From the NCBI GenBank assembly GCA_021324675.1, contig JAJPIR010000337.1, positions 1-34,939 on the forward strand: DNA of 34,939 nt, written 5' to 3'. Shown in pieces: positions 1 to 4,979 of the stretch (position 1 is the stretch's first letter; every line of letters starts with the position of its first letter). The notes beneath the pieces are model-generated. The model searched no databases, was not told the DNA's origin, and saw only the letters and a program-made list of their open reading frames with translations. Made by a program: the position numbers and the translations under genes. The stretch is from Actinomycetota bacterium. Its GTDB lineage: Bacteria > Actinomycetota > Actinomycetes > Mycobacteriales > Pseudonocardiaceae.

Positions 1-54
1 GACTAACGCCCACAACTCATCGGGCACCAACCGACGCGACAACTCGTCCACCAC
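1..54 (-). CDS. IS5-family transposase, N-terminus only (cut by window edge)
   Basis: Read on the minus strand, the first 54 bases give an open frame beginning with two consecutive GTG codons and ending in the stretch RRLVPDELWALV. That stretch is typical of the extreme N-terminus of IS5-family (DDE) transposases, where it precedes the 'EPLLP' segment. An in-frame stop lies just upstream (64-66), so the start is probably one of the two GTGs. The rest of the gene lies outside the window, so whether the element is intact cannot be judged. An insertion sequence at this edge fits the low coding density and repeat-containing DNA that follow. The call rests on about 17 residues; the motif is recognisable but short. 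Confidence 0.55.
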   Translation of the reverse strand, partial: MVDELSRRLVPDELWALV

Positions 55-135
55 GACCGGTGATCATGTAGGAAAGCACTCCATGACCCAAGTGAGACAC
101 GCTCTAAGCTCGGTCATTGATCCTGGCGTGGCGAC

Positions 136-180
136 GCTCCCGGACATTACACGGCGACAGCTGGCGTGATGTCCGGGAGC
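136..180. repeat. Perfect 12-bp inverted repeat, long hairpin
   Basis: The arms GCTCCCGGACAT (136-147) and ATGTCCGGGAGC (169-180) are perfect inverted copies separated by 21 bases; wobble and normal pairs extend the stem to about 15. It lies some 80 bases upstream of the transposase start. It could be a structure at the end of the insertion sequence, a regulatory hairpin of the element, or a leftover terminator. No T-run follows on either strand. Confidence 0.6.
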
Positions 181-227
181 CAGTCGCAAGCTATGAGCTT
201 TTTACAGCTCACCCCTAACGGTGGCGG

Positions 228-277
228 CGATCGGGCAACCTGAGGTACTCAACGATCGGACAACCGGAGGTACTCGA
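228..277. repeat. Two adjacent ~24-bp direct repeats
   Basis: Two head-to-tail copies begin at about 228 and 253. Both read CGATCGG, then RCAACC, then KGAGGTACTC, with only a few differences. They lie in non-coding DNA near the transposase edge. Paired short repeats of this kind occur at the ends of some insertion sequences, where transposase binds, but I cannot assign an element. They could also be a simple local duplication. Confidence 0.55.
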
Positions 278-1374
278 CCTGCACGACTGTAGGTTCGCGG
301 TGGCTTCGCCGATGATCAGCTTCTACTGACTTCGGCCCCAGCTTGGCCTGGCCATGGACCAGAGCATGAGCACTTCCCGCTGGTTGCCGGCACCTCCGGA
401 GAAGCGCATGCTGTCACGTCGGGATCGATCGAGTCGCAACAACACGGTCGGGCCGGTAGCGCTGCCGCCACGCACGTGGTGTGGGAGGCTCACCAGGATC
501 ATGCTGTGGAAGAAGATTGCACGCTCGTGGTCAAACCGTGTTGTGGCATGGTGTGCGCCGCAGCAGCAGCTGATGGCGCAGCACCTGCCAACTCACCTGT
601 ACGATCTCCGCGGTAATGCAGCACAACGCACCGACGGTTGAGCAGCCACTTCATCACCGTTATTCTCAAATGATCAAAACTTTGATCAAGCAGTCGAAGA
701 GGCGCGCCTGCGGATCCGTCCGTGGGATAAATAGAAAATCACCGGGGAGCGATTACCCGGCGTTGATGGCGCGCTCGATATTTGTCGCGGGCAGGTGCAT
801 CATTCCCCAAGGCCATGCCTATACGATGCATCGTATGCCAACCGGTGTCCTGCAAAACGGGCGGCCACAAAAAGGCAATGGTGCATCTTTCGTTCAGTCG
901 ACATATCCCCGGATCCAGCTGGCCACCGTTGTTGAAGTCTTGACACTGGTGAATATTTGACCAGGCGCGCGGCGCTGAGTACAGGGACATGCGCGCAGAT
1001 GATGTGCACGCTGTGATGTGAGGACGCCGGACGGCCAAATGGTGCATTCAACGATCGGCTCGCTCAACTTTGCGTGGCCTAACTGCTAACGCGCCGCATA
1101 TCCTCGACCGGCCACCGGCTGGCACGACATCTGTGGCGGCTTCCTGCCATCCGGCGGTCCTTCCCTTCGACGAACCTCATCCTGTGAATAAAGGGATCCA
1201 CCAATGATGCCGCGCCTGGTGATCGCGCTAACGGCACGGTTCCTTCTTGGTTGCCGGGTATGCGCTTAGCGGTATTAGCGCCAGCAAACAACTGTCCCGT
1301 ACCTGTAATTTTAGGTCATCCGTCAGCGAAATATAGGTATCGGAACTTCTTAACGGAGGCAGGGAGGGATCCCG
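278..1374. other. About 1.1 kb without a supportable gene
   Basis: Several open frames of up to about 115 codons exist on both strands, but none has a ribosome binding site, biased third positions or a recognisable domain. The stretch looks like degraded mobile DNA next to the transposase edge. Visible structure is limited to a 16-bp palindrome at 821-836 and a GAGCT/AGCTC hairpin near 196-212. The last 100 bases must hold the promoter of the small gene at 1375, but no clear -35/-10 pair can be named. Confidence 0.5.
821..836. repeat. Perfect 16-bp palindrome
   Basis: ATACGATGCATCGTAT reads identically on both strands. It lies in the gene-poor stretch with no adjacent start codon that could be called. 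A dyad of this size could be an operator or recombination site, but it may be chance. Confidence 0.5.
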
Positions 1375-1521
1375 ATGTTAGTTAGTGAGATTTTTTCCAA
1401 CGGCTTAAGCCGTCTCGGTGACCGTGATGACCGCGACCACCATCACCATCACCATCACCATCGTCGTCACCACCGTCGCTGGTGGGACGGGCGCCGTTGG
1501 TGCGACGAATGGTGGGACTGA
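1375..1521 (+). CDS. Histidine/tryptophan-rich small peptide, 48 aa
   Basis: The ATG at 1375 is preceded by a GGAGG box (1363-1367) at good spacing, and the frame closes at 1521, about 20 bases before a strong terminator. The peptide has an ordinary 15-residue N-terminus (MLVSEIFSNGLSRLG), an Asp/Arg segment, eight consecutive His, then RRHHRR, and a C-terminus with five Trp, one Cys and several Asp. His run plus acidic residues suggests metal binding (Ni, Zn, Cu or Co). The Trp-rich tail is unusual and might contact membrane or a partner. There are no Ser/Thr/Cys patterns of lanthipeptides, and no modifying enzyme is adjacent. I do not recognise a named family. That it is a real, monocistronic gene rests on the ribosome site and terminator. 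Confidence 0.7.
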   Translation: MLVSEIFSNGLSRLGDRDDRDHHHHHHHHRRHHRRWWDGRRWCDEWWD

Positions 1522-1541
1522 TCTCTGACTAGTTAATGCAT

Positions 1542-1574
1542 GAGCGGGGCCCGCTGGGCCCCGCTCCGTCTTTT
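1542..1574 (+). terminator. Strong intrinsic terminator
   Basis: An 11-bp perfect GC-rich stem, GAGCGGGGCCC / GGGCCCCGCTC, with a 3-base loop is followed after four bases by TTTT. The T-run is only on the plus strand side, so it terminates plus-strand transcription from the His-rich peptide gene. Confidence 0.85.
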
Positions 1575-1669
1575 ATGGCCCTGAGAAGCACTGAGACATG
1601 GGGAGCCCGGGTATAGCTGCCGCCAGTTGCTTGATTCTGCCAGATTGTCACGCGCGTGATCCGCTTCAA

Positions 1670-1705
1670 CCCCATGCCTGCCCGGCGGCTGCGGGAGGCA
1701 TGGGG
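1670..1705. repeat. Perfect 10-bp inverted repeat, possible terminator of the minus-strand peptide gene
   Basis: CCCCATGCCT (1670-1679) pairs with AGGCATGGGG (1696-1705), and a CCCG/CGGG pair extends the stem after a one-base bulge. It lies about 160 bases downstream of the stop of the minus-strand peptide gene and after the plus-strand terminator. It could end transcription of that gene or insulate the two. No T-run is present. Confidence 0.45.
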
Positions 1706-1865
1706 GTACGTCGAATGGTGTAGATGCCAGCGTACTGCAATAATCGTTACAACGGCGAAATTACCACCAGGCGACGTTGGGTCCGCGGCGCTTAAATCGT
1801 GGGGTGAGAGCGGGCAGTCGTCAGGACGCTTTACGGTGATGCTAGCGGTTTGGCAGAAGGAATGG

Positions 1866-2105
1866 CTAATCAAGATTCATCGACGATGGATTAGGACAAA
1901 CGCCAGGTTGATCTCCGCATGGGATTGTGGGATGCGGGGCTGATGCCATGTGGTCGTTTGTAGGTGTCGATGCGGATATTATACCGGCCAAACCACCAAA
2001 AAGGAACGTGACACCCCAGAGAAGCGCCGTTGCGATAGTGCGTTTGTGTGGCCGTCGCGCAGGTATTTGTCTCGGCGCCCCACGCATGGGATTTGTGTCT
2101 AACAT
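1866..2105 (-). CDS. Small membrane/exported peptide A with C-terminal CGDQPGVCP motif, 79 aa
   Basis: I chose the ATG at 2105, which has AAGGA about 10 bases upstream; the same frame is open further upstream but without support. The peptide has a basic N-terminus (RRPHKR around residues 17-22), one hydrophobic segment (about 24-44, ALLWGVTFLFGGLAGII), a polar linker, and the tail PCGDQPGVCPNPSS near 62-75. The two Cys lie seven residues apart and could close a disulfide loop. The divergent plus-strand peptide at 2747 has the same architecture and tail (PCGSKPGVCPDAS), although the rest of the two sequences differs. Conservation of just the tail argues that it is the functional part. It could be a secreted signal, a bacteriocin-like peptide or a small membrane regulator. 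No known family is recognised. Confidence 0.6.
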   Translation of the reverse strand: MLDTNPMRGAPRQIPARRPHKRTIATALLWGVTFLFGGLAGIISASTPTNDHMASAPHPTIPCGDQPGVCPNPSSMNLD

Positions 2106-2746
2106 TAGTATCGCATCCTTCTGGGCGCAGGCCGCAGCGTTGAGCCATCCATTAGTGTGCCACCGGCCCCGGTGGGACGCAACCTTAAGAGGGTCATGTG
2201 GGGTGCAATCACACTGCTGACAGTACGCGACCGTCATACTACAGGTGTACAGACCGGTGCGGAGTACTGCGTATGATGTAGTGGGCGCTCCATGGTGATG
2301 TACTCTGAAATCGCACAGTCGCTGCGGATCACTGGTTAAAAACTGGTTTCGAGAGAATGTGCCGCATGAATTGGTTCGTGGGTATCTGCTCAACTGCTCG
2401 CTTTGTGTAAAAAGCCTGGCGAGTAAATCGGTGTCGAGTCAAGGTGTAGAGAGCTCCTTCGTAGGTCGCCAGGATGGTAGGCGTGCCCCGCGGCTCGCTT
2501 GGCCTGAGCCTCACGCACCCAGAGTGTCACGGCCGGCCTGGAGCTACGGTGGCAGGCTTCTACGCCAAGCGTTCAGATGGGTACAGGCTGAAGTCACGGA
2601 GATCCCTCTGGCACTTTGCTACCTGCGTGAGCAAATGGATTGTTTGAATGCTTGTGTAAATGGCTTGCGACCGGTTGGGGCTGGGTGGAACACTGCTGGA
2701 TTGGCCAATAGCCTCTGGTTTGGTGCACGCTGAGGAGACGAGTACC
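2106..2746. other. Divergent intergenic region between the two paired peptide genes
   Basis: About 640 bases separate the divergent peptide genes, so promoters for both, and for the kinase operon, must lie here. Visible structure includes a CCACCG/CGGTGG hairpin around 2160-2175. Two doubtful short frames exist: a 14-codon frame starting near 2365 with GAGAGA upstream, and a 57-codon frame (2474-2647) listed separately. A longer 124-codon frame at 2359 overlaps both and looks non-coding. Confidence 0.5.
2474..2647 (+). CDS. Doubtful small ORF, 57 aa
   Basis: This frame starts at ATG 2474 and ends in TGA 2647. Its third codon positions are roughly two-thirds G or C, higher than the other frames here, and it contains a compact stretch, THPECHGRPGATVAGFYAKR, that looks protein-like. 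There is no convincing ribosome binding site and I recognise no family. It may be a remnant of a larger gene or chance. Its position, 100 bases upstream of the second paired peptide gene and on the same strand, is the main reason to record it. Confidence 0.2.
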   Translation: MVGVPRGSLGLSLTHPECHGRPGATVAGFYAKRSDGYRLKSRRSLWHFATCVSKWIV

Positions 2747-2944
2747 ATGATCGTGCCCGTTGTCCCATCTCAGTATGGAATGCCGATAAAATCGCACGCG
2801 CAGTCATTGTGGAAGGGTCCTGGAGTTAGGGTGTTGCTATCGAGCGCCGCTTTCGTCTTTGCGGGTTTGATGGCTTTTCCATTTAATCCGTGTGGGAGCA
2901 AACCGGGTGTCTGCCCGGACGCTTCGTTCGCGAAGTCGAAATGA
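2747..2944 (+). CDS. Small membrane/exported peptide B with C-terminal CGSKPGVCP motif, 65 aa
   Basis: The ATG at 2747 has GAGGAG (2732-2737) nine bases upstream, a better start than the upstream in-frame ATG at 2660. The peptide has a short N-terminal segment with Lys/His/Arg (about 15-28), a hydrophobic segment (about 28-46, VLLSSAAFVFAGLMAFPF), and the tail NPCGSKPGVCPDASFAKSK. The tail matches the divergent peptide A (PCGDQPGVCPNPS) while the remainder does not, so the Cys-x6-Cys element is the shared feature. The gene ends 45 bases before the sensor kinase at 2990 on the same strand, and no terminator separates them. The obvious hypothesis is that the exported tail is the ligand or a modulator of that kinase. 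A bacteriocin-like product or accessory membrane subunit are alternatives. Confidence 0.7.
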   Translation: MIVPVVPSQYGMPIKSHAQSLWKGPGVRVLLSSAAFVFAGLMAFPFNPCGSKPGVCPDASFAKSK

Positions 2945-2989
2945 CGGTCGACTGGAACGCCATTCTATAAACGGAAGCATGGAGACACG

Positions 2990-4216
2990 ATGCGGATCCC
3001 GGGTGTGGCACCGAAGATTATGCACGTGTCGCCGTCCGCAAGACGGGACGTCCTCCTACTCGCGGAGCTTTTTCTCCTTAACTGTTTTGTTTTTTCCAGA
3101 TGGCCTGAGCTGGGGCAGGTGTCAGCCAAGCCGTTGTTGCTGTTGAATTGGCTCTATGGGCTAGGTTCACTCATACCTCTCGCTTGGCGAGACAGAGCTC
3201 CCATAATTGTGCTCACTTGTGAATGGCTGCTGACCGTTGCGGCGTGGCCAATCATGCCTTATTATACCCCGGTTGCAGGTATTCCAGTTGCCGTCTACGC
3301 GGTTTCTGTGTATCGCGACAGAACGATATCCCTGTTGGCGTTGCTGGCCTCTTTCGTTCCAAACATGCTTAGTGCAACGGTGGTATTTAGAAGTTCCCCT
3401 GTCCGTGCTGAACATTTCCAGCAATTCATCGCCACTGCTATACTTCTTATCATAGTGACTGTCGGGGCATGGGGTGCCGGCCGGGTGACTCGGGCGATTC
3501 AACAGCATGTTCAGTCCCTGGAAGGGGAACGGGAAGTGACCCGACAGGCAGAAGCAGTGGGGGCCGAACGGCGAAGGATCGCGCGGGAACTCCACGACAT
3601 CGTGTCCCATGCGGTGACGGTGATGGTATTACAGGCGGCCGGGGCCGCGAAAACCGTCCATATTGATTTGGCGCAGGTAATCCGGTCGCTAAATCATATA
3701 GAGGTCACTGGCAGGCAGGCTATGGACGAGTTACGGCGGCTCCTGGGAGTGCTCGGTGGCACCAATTCGAACGGTGAACTTGGAAAACAGTACGGACTGG
3801 CCGATCTGCCCATACTGCTCACCTCATTTAGAGACGCTGGATTGGCAGTTGATGTCCATATCGAAGGAACGCCAGGCCGGCTAGCTCCCAGCGTGGATCT
3901 TGCCGCATACCGGATCGTGCAGGAAGGGTTAACTAACGTCCTTAAACACGCAGGCAAAAATTGCAAATCTCGTCTACGGGTGGTCTGGGCCGCTGATGAT
4001 CTGTTGATCCAAATCGACAACGACACCAATCCTGTTAAGGAGGAATATGGGCGGGAGCTGTCCATCGGCCGTGGCTTGGCAGGCCTCCGGGAGCGAACCC
4101 TCGCGGTTGGCGGCGGCCTGCATGCAGGCTCTCTTGACAATGGCGGCTACCGACTCGTGGCCACCCTGCCGGTCGCGGGCATCGCACCAGGATTTGCCCT
4201 CGGTCAAGCATCGTAA
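2990..4216 (+). CDS. Sensor histidine kinase, NarL/DesK type (HisKA_3 + HATPase_c), 408 aa
   Basis: The first 165 residues contain about six hydrophobic segments (roughly 20-37, 47-67, 71-90, 94-108, 112-131 and 147-163) with only short loops, so there is no large extracellular sensor domain. A linker helix follows, then the HisKA_3 phosphoacceptor motif ERRRIARELHDIVSH with His202. The ATPase domain has the N-box YRIVQEGLTNVLKHA (about 308-321), a G1-like QIDND (341-345) and G2 GRGLAGLRER (360-369). GGAG lies just upstream of the ATG. The kinase is downstream of peptide B and upstream of its cognate regulator. Kinases that sense through membrane helices can detect small hydrophobic or peptide ligands or membrane state; the neighbouring peptides make a peptide ligand attractive, but this is inference. 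Confidence 0.92.
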   Translation: MRIPGVAPKIMHVSPSARRDVLLLAELFLLNCFVFSRWPELGQVSAKPLLLLNWLYGLGSLIPLAWRDRAPIIVLTCEWLLTVAAWPIMPYYTPVAGIPVAVYAVSVYRDRTISLLALLASFVPNMLSATVVFRSSPVRAEHFQQFIATAILLIIVTVGAWGAGRVTRAIQQHVQSLEGEREVTRQAEAVGAERRRIARELHDIVSHAVTVMVLQAAGAAKTVHIDLAQVIRSLNHIEVTGRQAMDELRRLLGVLGGTNSNGELGKQYGLADLPILLTSFRDAGLAVDVHIEGTPGRLAPSVDLAAYRIVQEGLTNVLKHAGKNCKSRLRVVWAADDLLIQIDNDTNPVKEEYGRELSIGRGLAGLRERTLAVGGGLHAGSLDNGGYRLVATLPVAGIAPGFALGQAS

Positions 4217-4301
4217 CTATTAGTATTCTACGATTTGAGCGCATGCGCGGTTCTATTCTCCTGGCTGAGTCTCAGACCGAGAGGATTGAGGAAGGTGTCG
4301 T

Positions 4302-4979
4302 ATGATCCGAGTCGTGATCGTCGATGACCAGCCGCTGGTGCGGGCTGGGATAGCGATGATGGTAAATGCCGAAAAAGACATCACCGTCGTTGCCGAAGCC
4401 GCCGATGGCAAAGGTGCACTTGCCCAGGTTCGCGCTGAGCGCCCGGATGTAGTTCTGATGGATGTGCGCATGCCAGGCACCGACGGAGTCACCGCGACGG
4501 GTGCTGTAGTCGCTGAGGGCATCACAGCGCATAGCGGTCGGCCCGTCGGGGTCATCATTCTCACTACTTACGACCTTGATGAGGCTGTCTACGCAGCGCT
4601 GCGCGCCGGTGCTGTAGGATTTCTCCTCAAAGATGCTTCATCTACCGAGATTGTTAGCGCGATTCGTGCGGTAGCCGCCGGCGAAGGCTGGCTGCATCCT
4701 GCGGTCACGCGTCGCCTCATCGAAGAATTTGCTGCACGGCCCGCTCAGCACACAGCGGCAGCACGGGAGATAGCTCAGCTGACGCCGAGGGAGCGAGAAG
4801 TACTCATCTTGGTAGCCCAGGGTCTGTCCAATGCCGAGGTCGCCATGAGGCTGTTCATCAGCGAGGCCACGGTAAAAACACACATTGCACGGGTGATGAT
4901 GAAGCTGGGAGTTCGAGAAAAGGCGCAGGCAGTGGTCGCGGCCTATCAATCCGGGCTCGTCCGGTTTCCAGCCGGTTGA
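4302..4979 (+). CDS. Response regulator, NarL/LuxR family, 225 aa
   Basis: The N-terminal receiver domain has the acidic pair VDDQ (8-10), the phosphoacceptor Asp54 in LMDVRMPG, the Thr in ILTTYD and Lys in FLLKDA. The C-terminal LuxR-type helix-turn-helix spans about 158-212 (LTPREREVLILVAQGLSN, then the recognition helix region SEATVKTHIARVMMKLG). The ATG has GAGGAAGG six bases upstream. It lies 85 bases downstream of the histidine kinase and should be its phosphorylation partner. Likely targets are unknown; the divergent promoters between the two small peptide genes are the first place to look. Confidence 0.93.
   Translation: MIRVVIVDDQPLVRAGIAMMVNAEKDITVVAEAADGKGALAQVRAERPDVVLMDVRMPGTDGVTATGAVVAEGITAHSGRPVGVIILTTYDLDEAVYAALRAGAVGFLLKDASSTEIVSAIRAVAAGEGWLHPAVTRRLIEEFAARPAQHTAAAREIAQLTPREREVLILVAQGLSNAEVAMRLFISEATVKTHIARVMMKLGVREKAQAVVAAYQSGLVRFPAG

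Follow-up and report, generated by a model that had tools for sequence, protein, structure and literature searches.

The window analysed here, the whole stretch of 34,939 nucleotides of contig JAJPIR010000337.1 (assembly GCA_021324675.1; Actinomycetota, Pseudonocardiaceae), carries two small genes on opposite strands, pepA and pepB, whose products each contain a loop bounded by two cysteines. pepA (2747..2944, + strand) is followed by the genes for a sensor histidine kinase of the HisKA_3 type (2990..4216, +) and a NarL-type response regulator (4302..4979, +). We propose, with a probability of roughly 0.5, that the exported Cys-loop peptide, whether released or attached, serves the adjoining kinase as its dedicated ligand, and that the regulator acts on a sigma factor gene as well as on its own operon. 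The evidence carrying this proposal is the gene order, the conservation of the motif, the co-occurrence of peptide and kinase, the purifying selection on the peptide genes and a shared upstream element. For this little-known genus, whose actinobacteria are uncultured, these results suggest a peptide signalling switch that had gone unrecognised.

In the proposed mechanism, the precursor, with its basic N-terminus and hydrophobic export segment, would display its C-terminal CGxxPGxC loop outside the cell. The loop, probably closed by a disulfide and containing a Pro-Gly turn, would act on the kinase sensor of five to six membrane helices, either after being cut free by signal peptidase or while still anchored. 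Phosphate would pass from the kinase to the NarL-type regulator, which may bind CTAC(A/C)TCA-nn-TGAGGTAG and a third half-site; in this way, the regulator would exert feedback on the operon of peptide, kinase and regulator and also control an extra gene for an ShbA-type sigma factor. We infer both the contact of the regulator with this element and the direction of the effect.

Pairing of the peptide and kinase genes

A peptide gene with a C(R)GxxPGxC tail was found directly upstream of all 13 genus kinase genes that have upstream DNA: three in the genome of the window and one in each of ten relatives, which makes 12 distinct loci in 11 genomes. Two further kinase fragments in one relative (G007) start at contig edges and are outside these 13. 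The kinase sensor profile and the peptide profile both match 11 of the 11 genus genomes, the peptide profile strongly; since the profiles were built from genus members, these matches are expected, and it is the contrast with the non-genus genomes that counts. Relative to the first base of the kinase gene, the peptide stop codon at ten loci starts at positions ranging from 131 nt upstream to 1 nt downstream. The stop and start codons overlap as ATGA in two other contigs of the same assembly (C241 and C182) and in the relative G002. In C241 and C182, the gene order is ShbA-type sigma factor, peptide, kinase and regulator, and the kinases are 58-59% identical to that of the window. C241, a contig of 3.2 kb, may be foreign to the assembly, because it is 99.6% identical over 3,170 bp to the G002 locus and the assembly is 3.47% contaminated. 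The ten named records matching the genus loci are metagenome-assembled genomes of Pseudonocardiales or Pseudonocardiaceae.

The divergence of the peptide was compared with those of its neighbours by the mirror-tree method at 10 of the 13 loci, leaving out C241 (near-identical to G002) and the partial kinases of G007 and G010. The correlation was 0.93 with the sensor, 0.91 with the catalytic half and 0.79 with the regulator, and the partial correlation between peptide and sensor was 0.80 given the regulator and 0.54 given the catalytic half; shared descent, however, confounds this signal and accounts for much of it. The link between tail and kinase drawn in the initial annotation is thus borne out by the 13 paired loci, by the co-occurrence in 11 genomes and by the divergence that tracks the sensor.

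The flanking genes that were tested, a part of the neighbours, matched Dus, PhoU, MFS_3, ShbA and LtrA among others. At L074-L076, L078 and L079, an MFS_3-type exporter gene lies 3′ of the regulator, adjoining it in G001 and apparently in G006 and otherwise farther away, and a dus gene lies divergently upstream of the peptide gene. In the window, the next gene after the regulator is an LtrA gene on the opposite strand.

Outside the genus, the two profiles behave differently from this. The family sample consisted of 297 genomes (11 of the genus and 286 others): the kinase profile matched one of the 286, weakly (G282, E = 6e-21), with no peptide motif in the stretch of G282 examined, and the peptide profile matched 21 of them, also weakly (best E = 8.7e-5). 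Class-wide, the kinase profile reached E = 1e-18 or better in none of 393 other genomes. Weak relatives may have been missed in these surveys, because scoring was confined to first-look candidates (no more than 11, 17 and 8 of them in each listed genome). A scan of genome contigs gave 11 loci, ten of them with the peptide; the locus lacking it was L080 (Pseudonocardia sp. OFTM335), whose kinase is about 50% identical over the sensor and has no peptide in the stretch examined. The more distant kinase of L038 is likewise without a CGxxPGxC peptide in the stretch examined. The initial annotation had held that a tail or a kinase standing alone would speak against their link. Such cases partly occur, namely L080, L038 and pepB, which is without a kinase of its own (no remnant of one turned up in the rest of the window), while the 13 genus loci are all paired; the pairing is thus limited to this genus.

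The kinases without a peptide also bear on a different and rather unlikely explanation, in which a DesK-like kinase responds to the membrane or to small molecules and the secreted product of the small gene, perhaps an antimicrobial or an envelope protein, acts as an effector transcribed together with it instead of serving as its ligand. Besides L080 and L038, this explanation draws on the catalytic half of the window kinase, for which DesK is the nearest solved chain (E = 7.9e-15, over that half only). It is opposed by the pairing, intact in all 13 genus loci, by the variable positions, which sit within a fixed loop scaffold, and by the orphan pepB, which has the promoter element of the operon, though co-regulation alone would fit an effector too. 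A ligand role is favoured because the loop is conserved, the residues within it are variable and the pairing is unbroken.

The surroundings of the L080 kinase (L080:3970-10528) raise another possibility. There, the kinase faces a divergent regulator, and both lie beside a class III lanthipeptide cluster with LanKC, a RamS-like precursor (MALLDLQELELPEDEGGELGAAPKGSRASKGCGNASGLSLLLC) and an ABC transporter. LanKC also scored above cut-off in 10 of the 11 genus genomes, and the peptide could in principle be thioether- or lanthionine-modified in the manner of class III lanthipeptides. We regard this as very improbable: the peptide is laid out for export and lacks an LLDLQ leader, neither a modifying gene beside the module nor a LanKC among the observed genes of the peptide loci was found, and each of the six genus LanKC loci that were read, which lie elsewhere in the genome, has its own RamS-like precursor. 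Regulation of lanthipeptides by the module was rejected on similar grounds, as these six loci lack the element described below and show no kinase in their 1.5-kb flanks.

The loop peptides and the kinase sensor

pepA encodes 65 amino acids, with a basic N-terminus, a hydrophobic segment at residues 29-45 and the loop CGSKPGVC (2891-2914), and a candidate ribosome-binding site, GAGGAGA (2732..2738, +), was recognised in the sequence before it. pepB (1866..2105, −) encodes 79 amino acids, with the loop CGDQPGVC (1896-1919), and is an orphan paralogue whose product is predicted to be exported or membrane-bound. The full tails of pepA and pepB are CGSKPGVCPDASFAKSK and CGDQPGVCPNPSSMNLD, respectively. 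The endings CGSKPGVCPD and CGDQPGVCPN on opposite strands, the 45-nt gap between pepA (stop codon ending at 2944) and the kinase ATG (2990), and the order of peptide, HisKA_3 kinase and NarL-type regulator are all as first described. The two peptides had also been called unrelated over most of their length. This holds in direct comparison, but pepB matched the C241 peptide in a search of its own assembly (E = 5.6e-5) and, more weakly, that of C182 (0.02), so that pepA and pepB look like members of one family. The C241 and C182 peptides end in CRG(E/Q)KPGVCPDYS, and both have a signal-peptide layout. Neither pepA nor pepB nor the C241 peptide matched a Pfam or NCBIfam family above cut-off.

In an alignment of 13 peptides, including pepB and leaving out that of G002 (identical to that of C241), only M1 and the C, G, P, G and C of the loop are invariant. 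The precursors have 62-103 residues and a Pro-Gly loop of 8-9 residues, and 0 to 31 residues follow the last Cys, which is the protein end in G004 and G007. A six-frame search of 307,858 bp of genus DNA (the window and 62 loci, with overlapping loci recounted) for the motif CR?G..PG.C gave 22 matches: 20 of them are in a peptide gene and 2 lie elsewhere, and the peptide ORFs (open reading frames) are, judged by this count, real genes and not chance occurrences of the motif. Ten chosen pairs were compared for dN/dS, one of which (C241-G002) is identical in the peptide gene and gives no value. The ratio is 0.25-0.57 in eight of the nine informative pairs and 0.92 in G004-G007, which indicates at the codon level that purifying selection acts on the peptide genes.

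Hydropathy and visual inspection were the basis for judging export and cleavage. All 14 peptides have one hydrophobic segment followed by 20-62 residues carrying the loop. Two features of this layout point in opposite directions. One is that AxA-type signal peptidase sites are seen in the C241 (IAAEA) and C182 (TAAEA) peptides and that the spacing between the membrane segment and the loop varies from 3 to 24 residues, so that release is somewhat favoured. The other is that this spacing is only three residues in pepA, which, together with the precedent of MgrB, leans towards tethering. In the latter case, the peptide could be an MgrB-like subunit, an uncleaved single-span protein whose extracellular Cys loop touches the kinase helices and inhibits the kinase or confers redox sensing; we consider this possible but doubtful. 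Its layout would match that of MgrB, described in a passage of PMC10576120 as a bitopic protein whose cytosolic N-terminus is short, whose two extracytoplasmic Cys are essential and whose loop contacts the kinase, and the shared operon and the overlapping stop and start codons would suit a subunit made in a fixed ratio. However, the cleavage sites of C241 and C182 and the range of membrane-loop distances weigh against such a subunit, the loop alone is kept across subfamilies while the hydrophobic segment is not, and no MgrB family match was obtained.

The window kinase has 408 amino acids, with a DUF7134 membrane sensor (about 2990-3559), HisKA_3 and HATPase_c, assigned from Pfam, relatives, hydropathy and a model; HATPase_c scores slightly under its Pfam cut-off. 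The regulator, of 225 amino acids, consists of a receiver and a GerE/LuxR helix-turn-helix of the NarL type (Pfam, NCBIfam). With HisKA_3 and HATPase_c in the kinase and Response_reg and GerE in the regulator, the pair belongs to the HisKA_3/NarL two-component systems. The initial annotation gave the sensor six helices with short loops. A low-confidence AF2 model (mean pLDDT 63.9) fits this and shows no extracellular domain, its helices being at 15-43, 49-65, 70-85, 97-108, 111-134 and from 139, with 49-65 and 111-134 each in two pieces; hydropathy, on the other hand, gives five segments in the window, and six in two and five in eight of ten relatives.

The G+C content is 55-61% at window positions 1-4800 and 60-69% in the following 4 kb, so this genome may have acquired the peptide-kinase module recently. 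Farther upstream (1375-1521, +), the window has a 48-aa ORF, MLVSEIFSNGLSRLGDRDDRD-H8-RRHHRRWWDGRRWCDEWWD, which is rich in His, Arg and Trp and has no Pfam match; by eye, a purine-rich stretch precedes it, and a GC-rich sequence resembling a hairpin, with a T run, comes after it.

The operator-like element and the ShbA-type sigma genes

Alignment of the upstream regions revealed a block of 42-43 bp, mostly CTACATCAnnTGAGGTAG - N11-12 - TTCTACATCTGTGG, whose end, in nine genus genomes, is 101-107 bp upstream of the peptide ATG. In the window, this block is present as an operator-like element of 43 bp (2239..2281, −) that lies 5′ of pepB and ends 133 bp before its ATG. It scored 26.5, whereas the best score among 200 mononucleotide shuffles of the window was 1.5; the leave-one-out scores of eight 43-bp sites were 49-70, and two further matches near the strength of the pepB element (27.7 and 26.0) are upstream of dus in L082 and L083. 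As for the earlier suggestion that pepA and pepB are two antagonistic ligands, no sign of antagonism was seen, and pepB looks like an additional peptide of the genus type with its own promoter element.

Searched for across whole genomes with at most one mismatch allowed, the palindrome was found at 23 sites in 11 genomes: 7 in peptide promoters, 7 upstream of ShbA-type sigma genes, 2 upstream of dus (G010 and G007) and 7 elsewhere. The sigma sites are those of G001, G003 and G005-G009, and the full block is present in all seven. ShbA-type genes (NF007230; E = 1e-30 or better) were found to number 24 in 10 of the 11 genomes, G010 having none. Seven of the 24 carry the block, three (C241, C182 and G002) directly precede the peptide, kinase and regulator genes, and 14 show neither within the flanks examined. 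In our reading of the sequences, the promoters of the three fused sigma genes retain a degenerate right half of the block.

Several points weigh against a dedicated ligand acting through this element, in addition to the shared descent noted above. On the peptide side, the cleavage sites of the G001 and G006 peptides look poor, and no maturation protease was found beside the module among the part of the neighbours tested. On the element side, the intact block is absent upstream of pepA and of the three fused loci, and a reversed control palindrome gave 12 sites as compared with the 23; site numbers alone being weak, it is the placement of the sites that carries evidence, and only 16 of the 23 are upstream of peptide, sigma or dus genes. 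The element-bearing sigma genes do not resolve into a single clade separate from the remaining ShbA-type genes, so that "extra ShbA-type gene" refers to their context and not to their descent. Finally, the element could serve dus or another reader, because two dus genes have their own copy. The sigma factor itself may be the reader. MerR, encoded near the sigma gene in some genomes, was set aside as a less likely candidate, since in G003 and G007 the element precedes the sigma gene with no MerR among the called neighbours.

Other genes were also seen near these sites. A small gene with the core DALSF(A/T)EV..QHVELLPARTVLSMF and a Gly/Ser-rich tail lies beside the element-bearing sigma gene in L112 (1041-1289, −), L111, L113 and L103; it faces the element and may be co-regulated, and the two copies scanned gave no family match. 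In the genome of the window, two one-mismatch palindromes stand in tandem (L110:1501-1541, in G000:C8), between a gene for a DCC1-like thiol-disulfide oxidoreductase and an ORF resembling, by eye, the start of an AMP-ligase. Exact palindromes lie between sigma-70-family and HlyD-type genes in L117 (G007:C63) and L108 (G004:C13), a possible further target; the families were scanned in L117 only.

Comparison with known systems

Peptide signals sensed by membrane kinases are well known in Firmicutes, and we regard the module as a new form of this general kind. Among the matches listed in a search of literature titles, which leaves most subscription journals outside its coverage, no such motif or system appeared for this group of Actinobacteria.

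The likeness to AgrC sensing pointed out in the initial annotation holds as an analogy only. As in the staphylococcal Agr system (AgrD, AgrB, AgrC and AgrA), a small precursor gene lies beside genes for a multi-helix kinase and a regulator, a ring-shaped ligand is proposed and autoregulation is suggested. However, no AgrB-type protease was found beside the peptide gene among the part of the flanking genes tested. The kinase is of the HisKA_3 type and the regulator is composed of Response_reg and GerE, whereas AgrA has a LytTR domain and AgrC belongs to a different kinase class. The peptides have two invariant Cys, while the part of PMC5007282 on Agr peptides describes a single one, fifth from the mature C-terminus, as a thiolactone. 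With no AgrB found among these genes, with two Cys, and with HisKA_3 and GerE, the module is not an Agr system.

DesK/DesR share with the module a related catalytic core, a few-helix sensor and a NarL-type regulator; the sensor here is, however, DUF7134, and to our knowledge, DesK has no peptide partner. MgrB-PhoQ and other small kinase modulators resemble it in the single hydrophobic span and, for MgrB, in two Cys, which a passage of PMC10576120 places outside the cytoplasm and presents as thought to form a loop; those of the module would likewise be extracytoplasmic. They differ in that no sequence relation was found and that, in the present case, the peptide gene heads the kinase operon, the loop is a Pro-Gly turn of 8-9 residues and some cleavage sites are good.

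We tentatively suggest, as less likely than the ligand role itself, an actinobacterial pheromone system: a released CGxxPGxC peptide would be sensed by a five- to six-helix HisKA_3 kinase and an ShbA-type sigma gene switched on through an operator of three half-sites, with loop variants as specificity types and orphans such as pepB as signals for eavesdropping or cross-talk. The proposed output resembles ShbA (SCO4769)-hrdB of Streptomyces in being an ShbA-family sigma factor (NF007230) and differs from it in being an extra copy. In the sections of PMC9205884 on this pair, Streptomyces ShbA drives the principal sigma gene hrdB, and its control is reported as unknown prior to the in-vitro data given there. 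If the proposed mechanism is true, it bears on the control of ShbA-type sigma factors and brings together, in a genus whose named records are metagenome assemblies, a compact ligand, receptor, operator and sigma-factor output, each of which is testable. If the pheromone system is real as well, cell-cell signalling would be tied to the sigma class on which Streptomyces relies for its housekeeping sigma factor.

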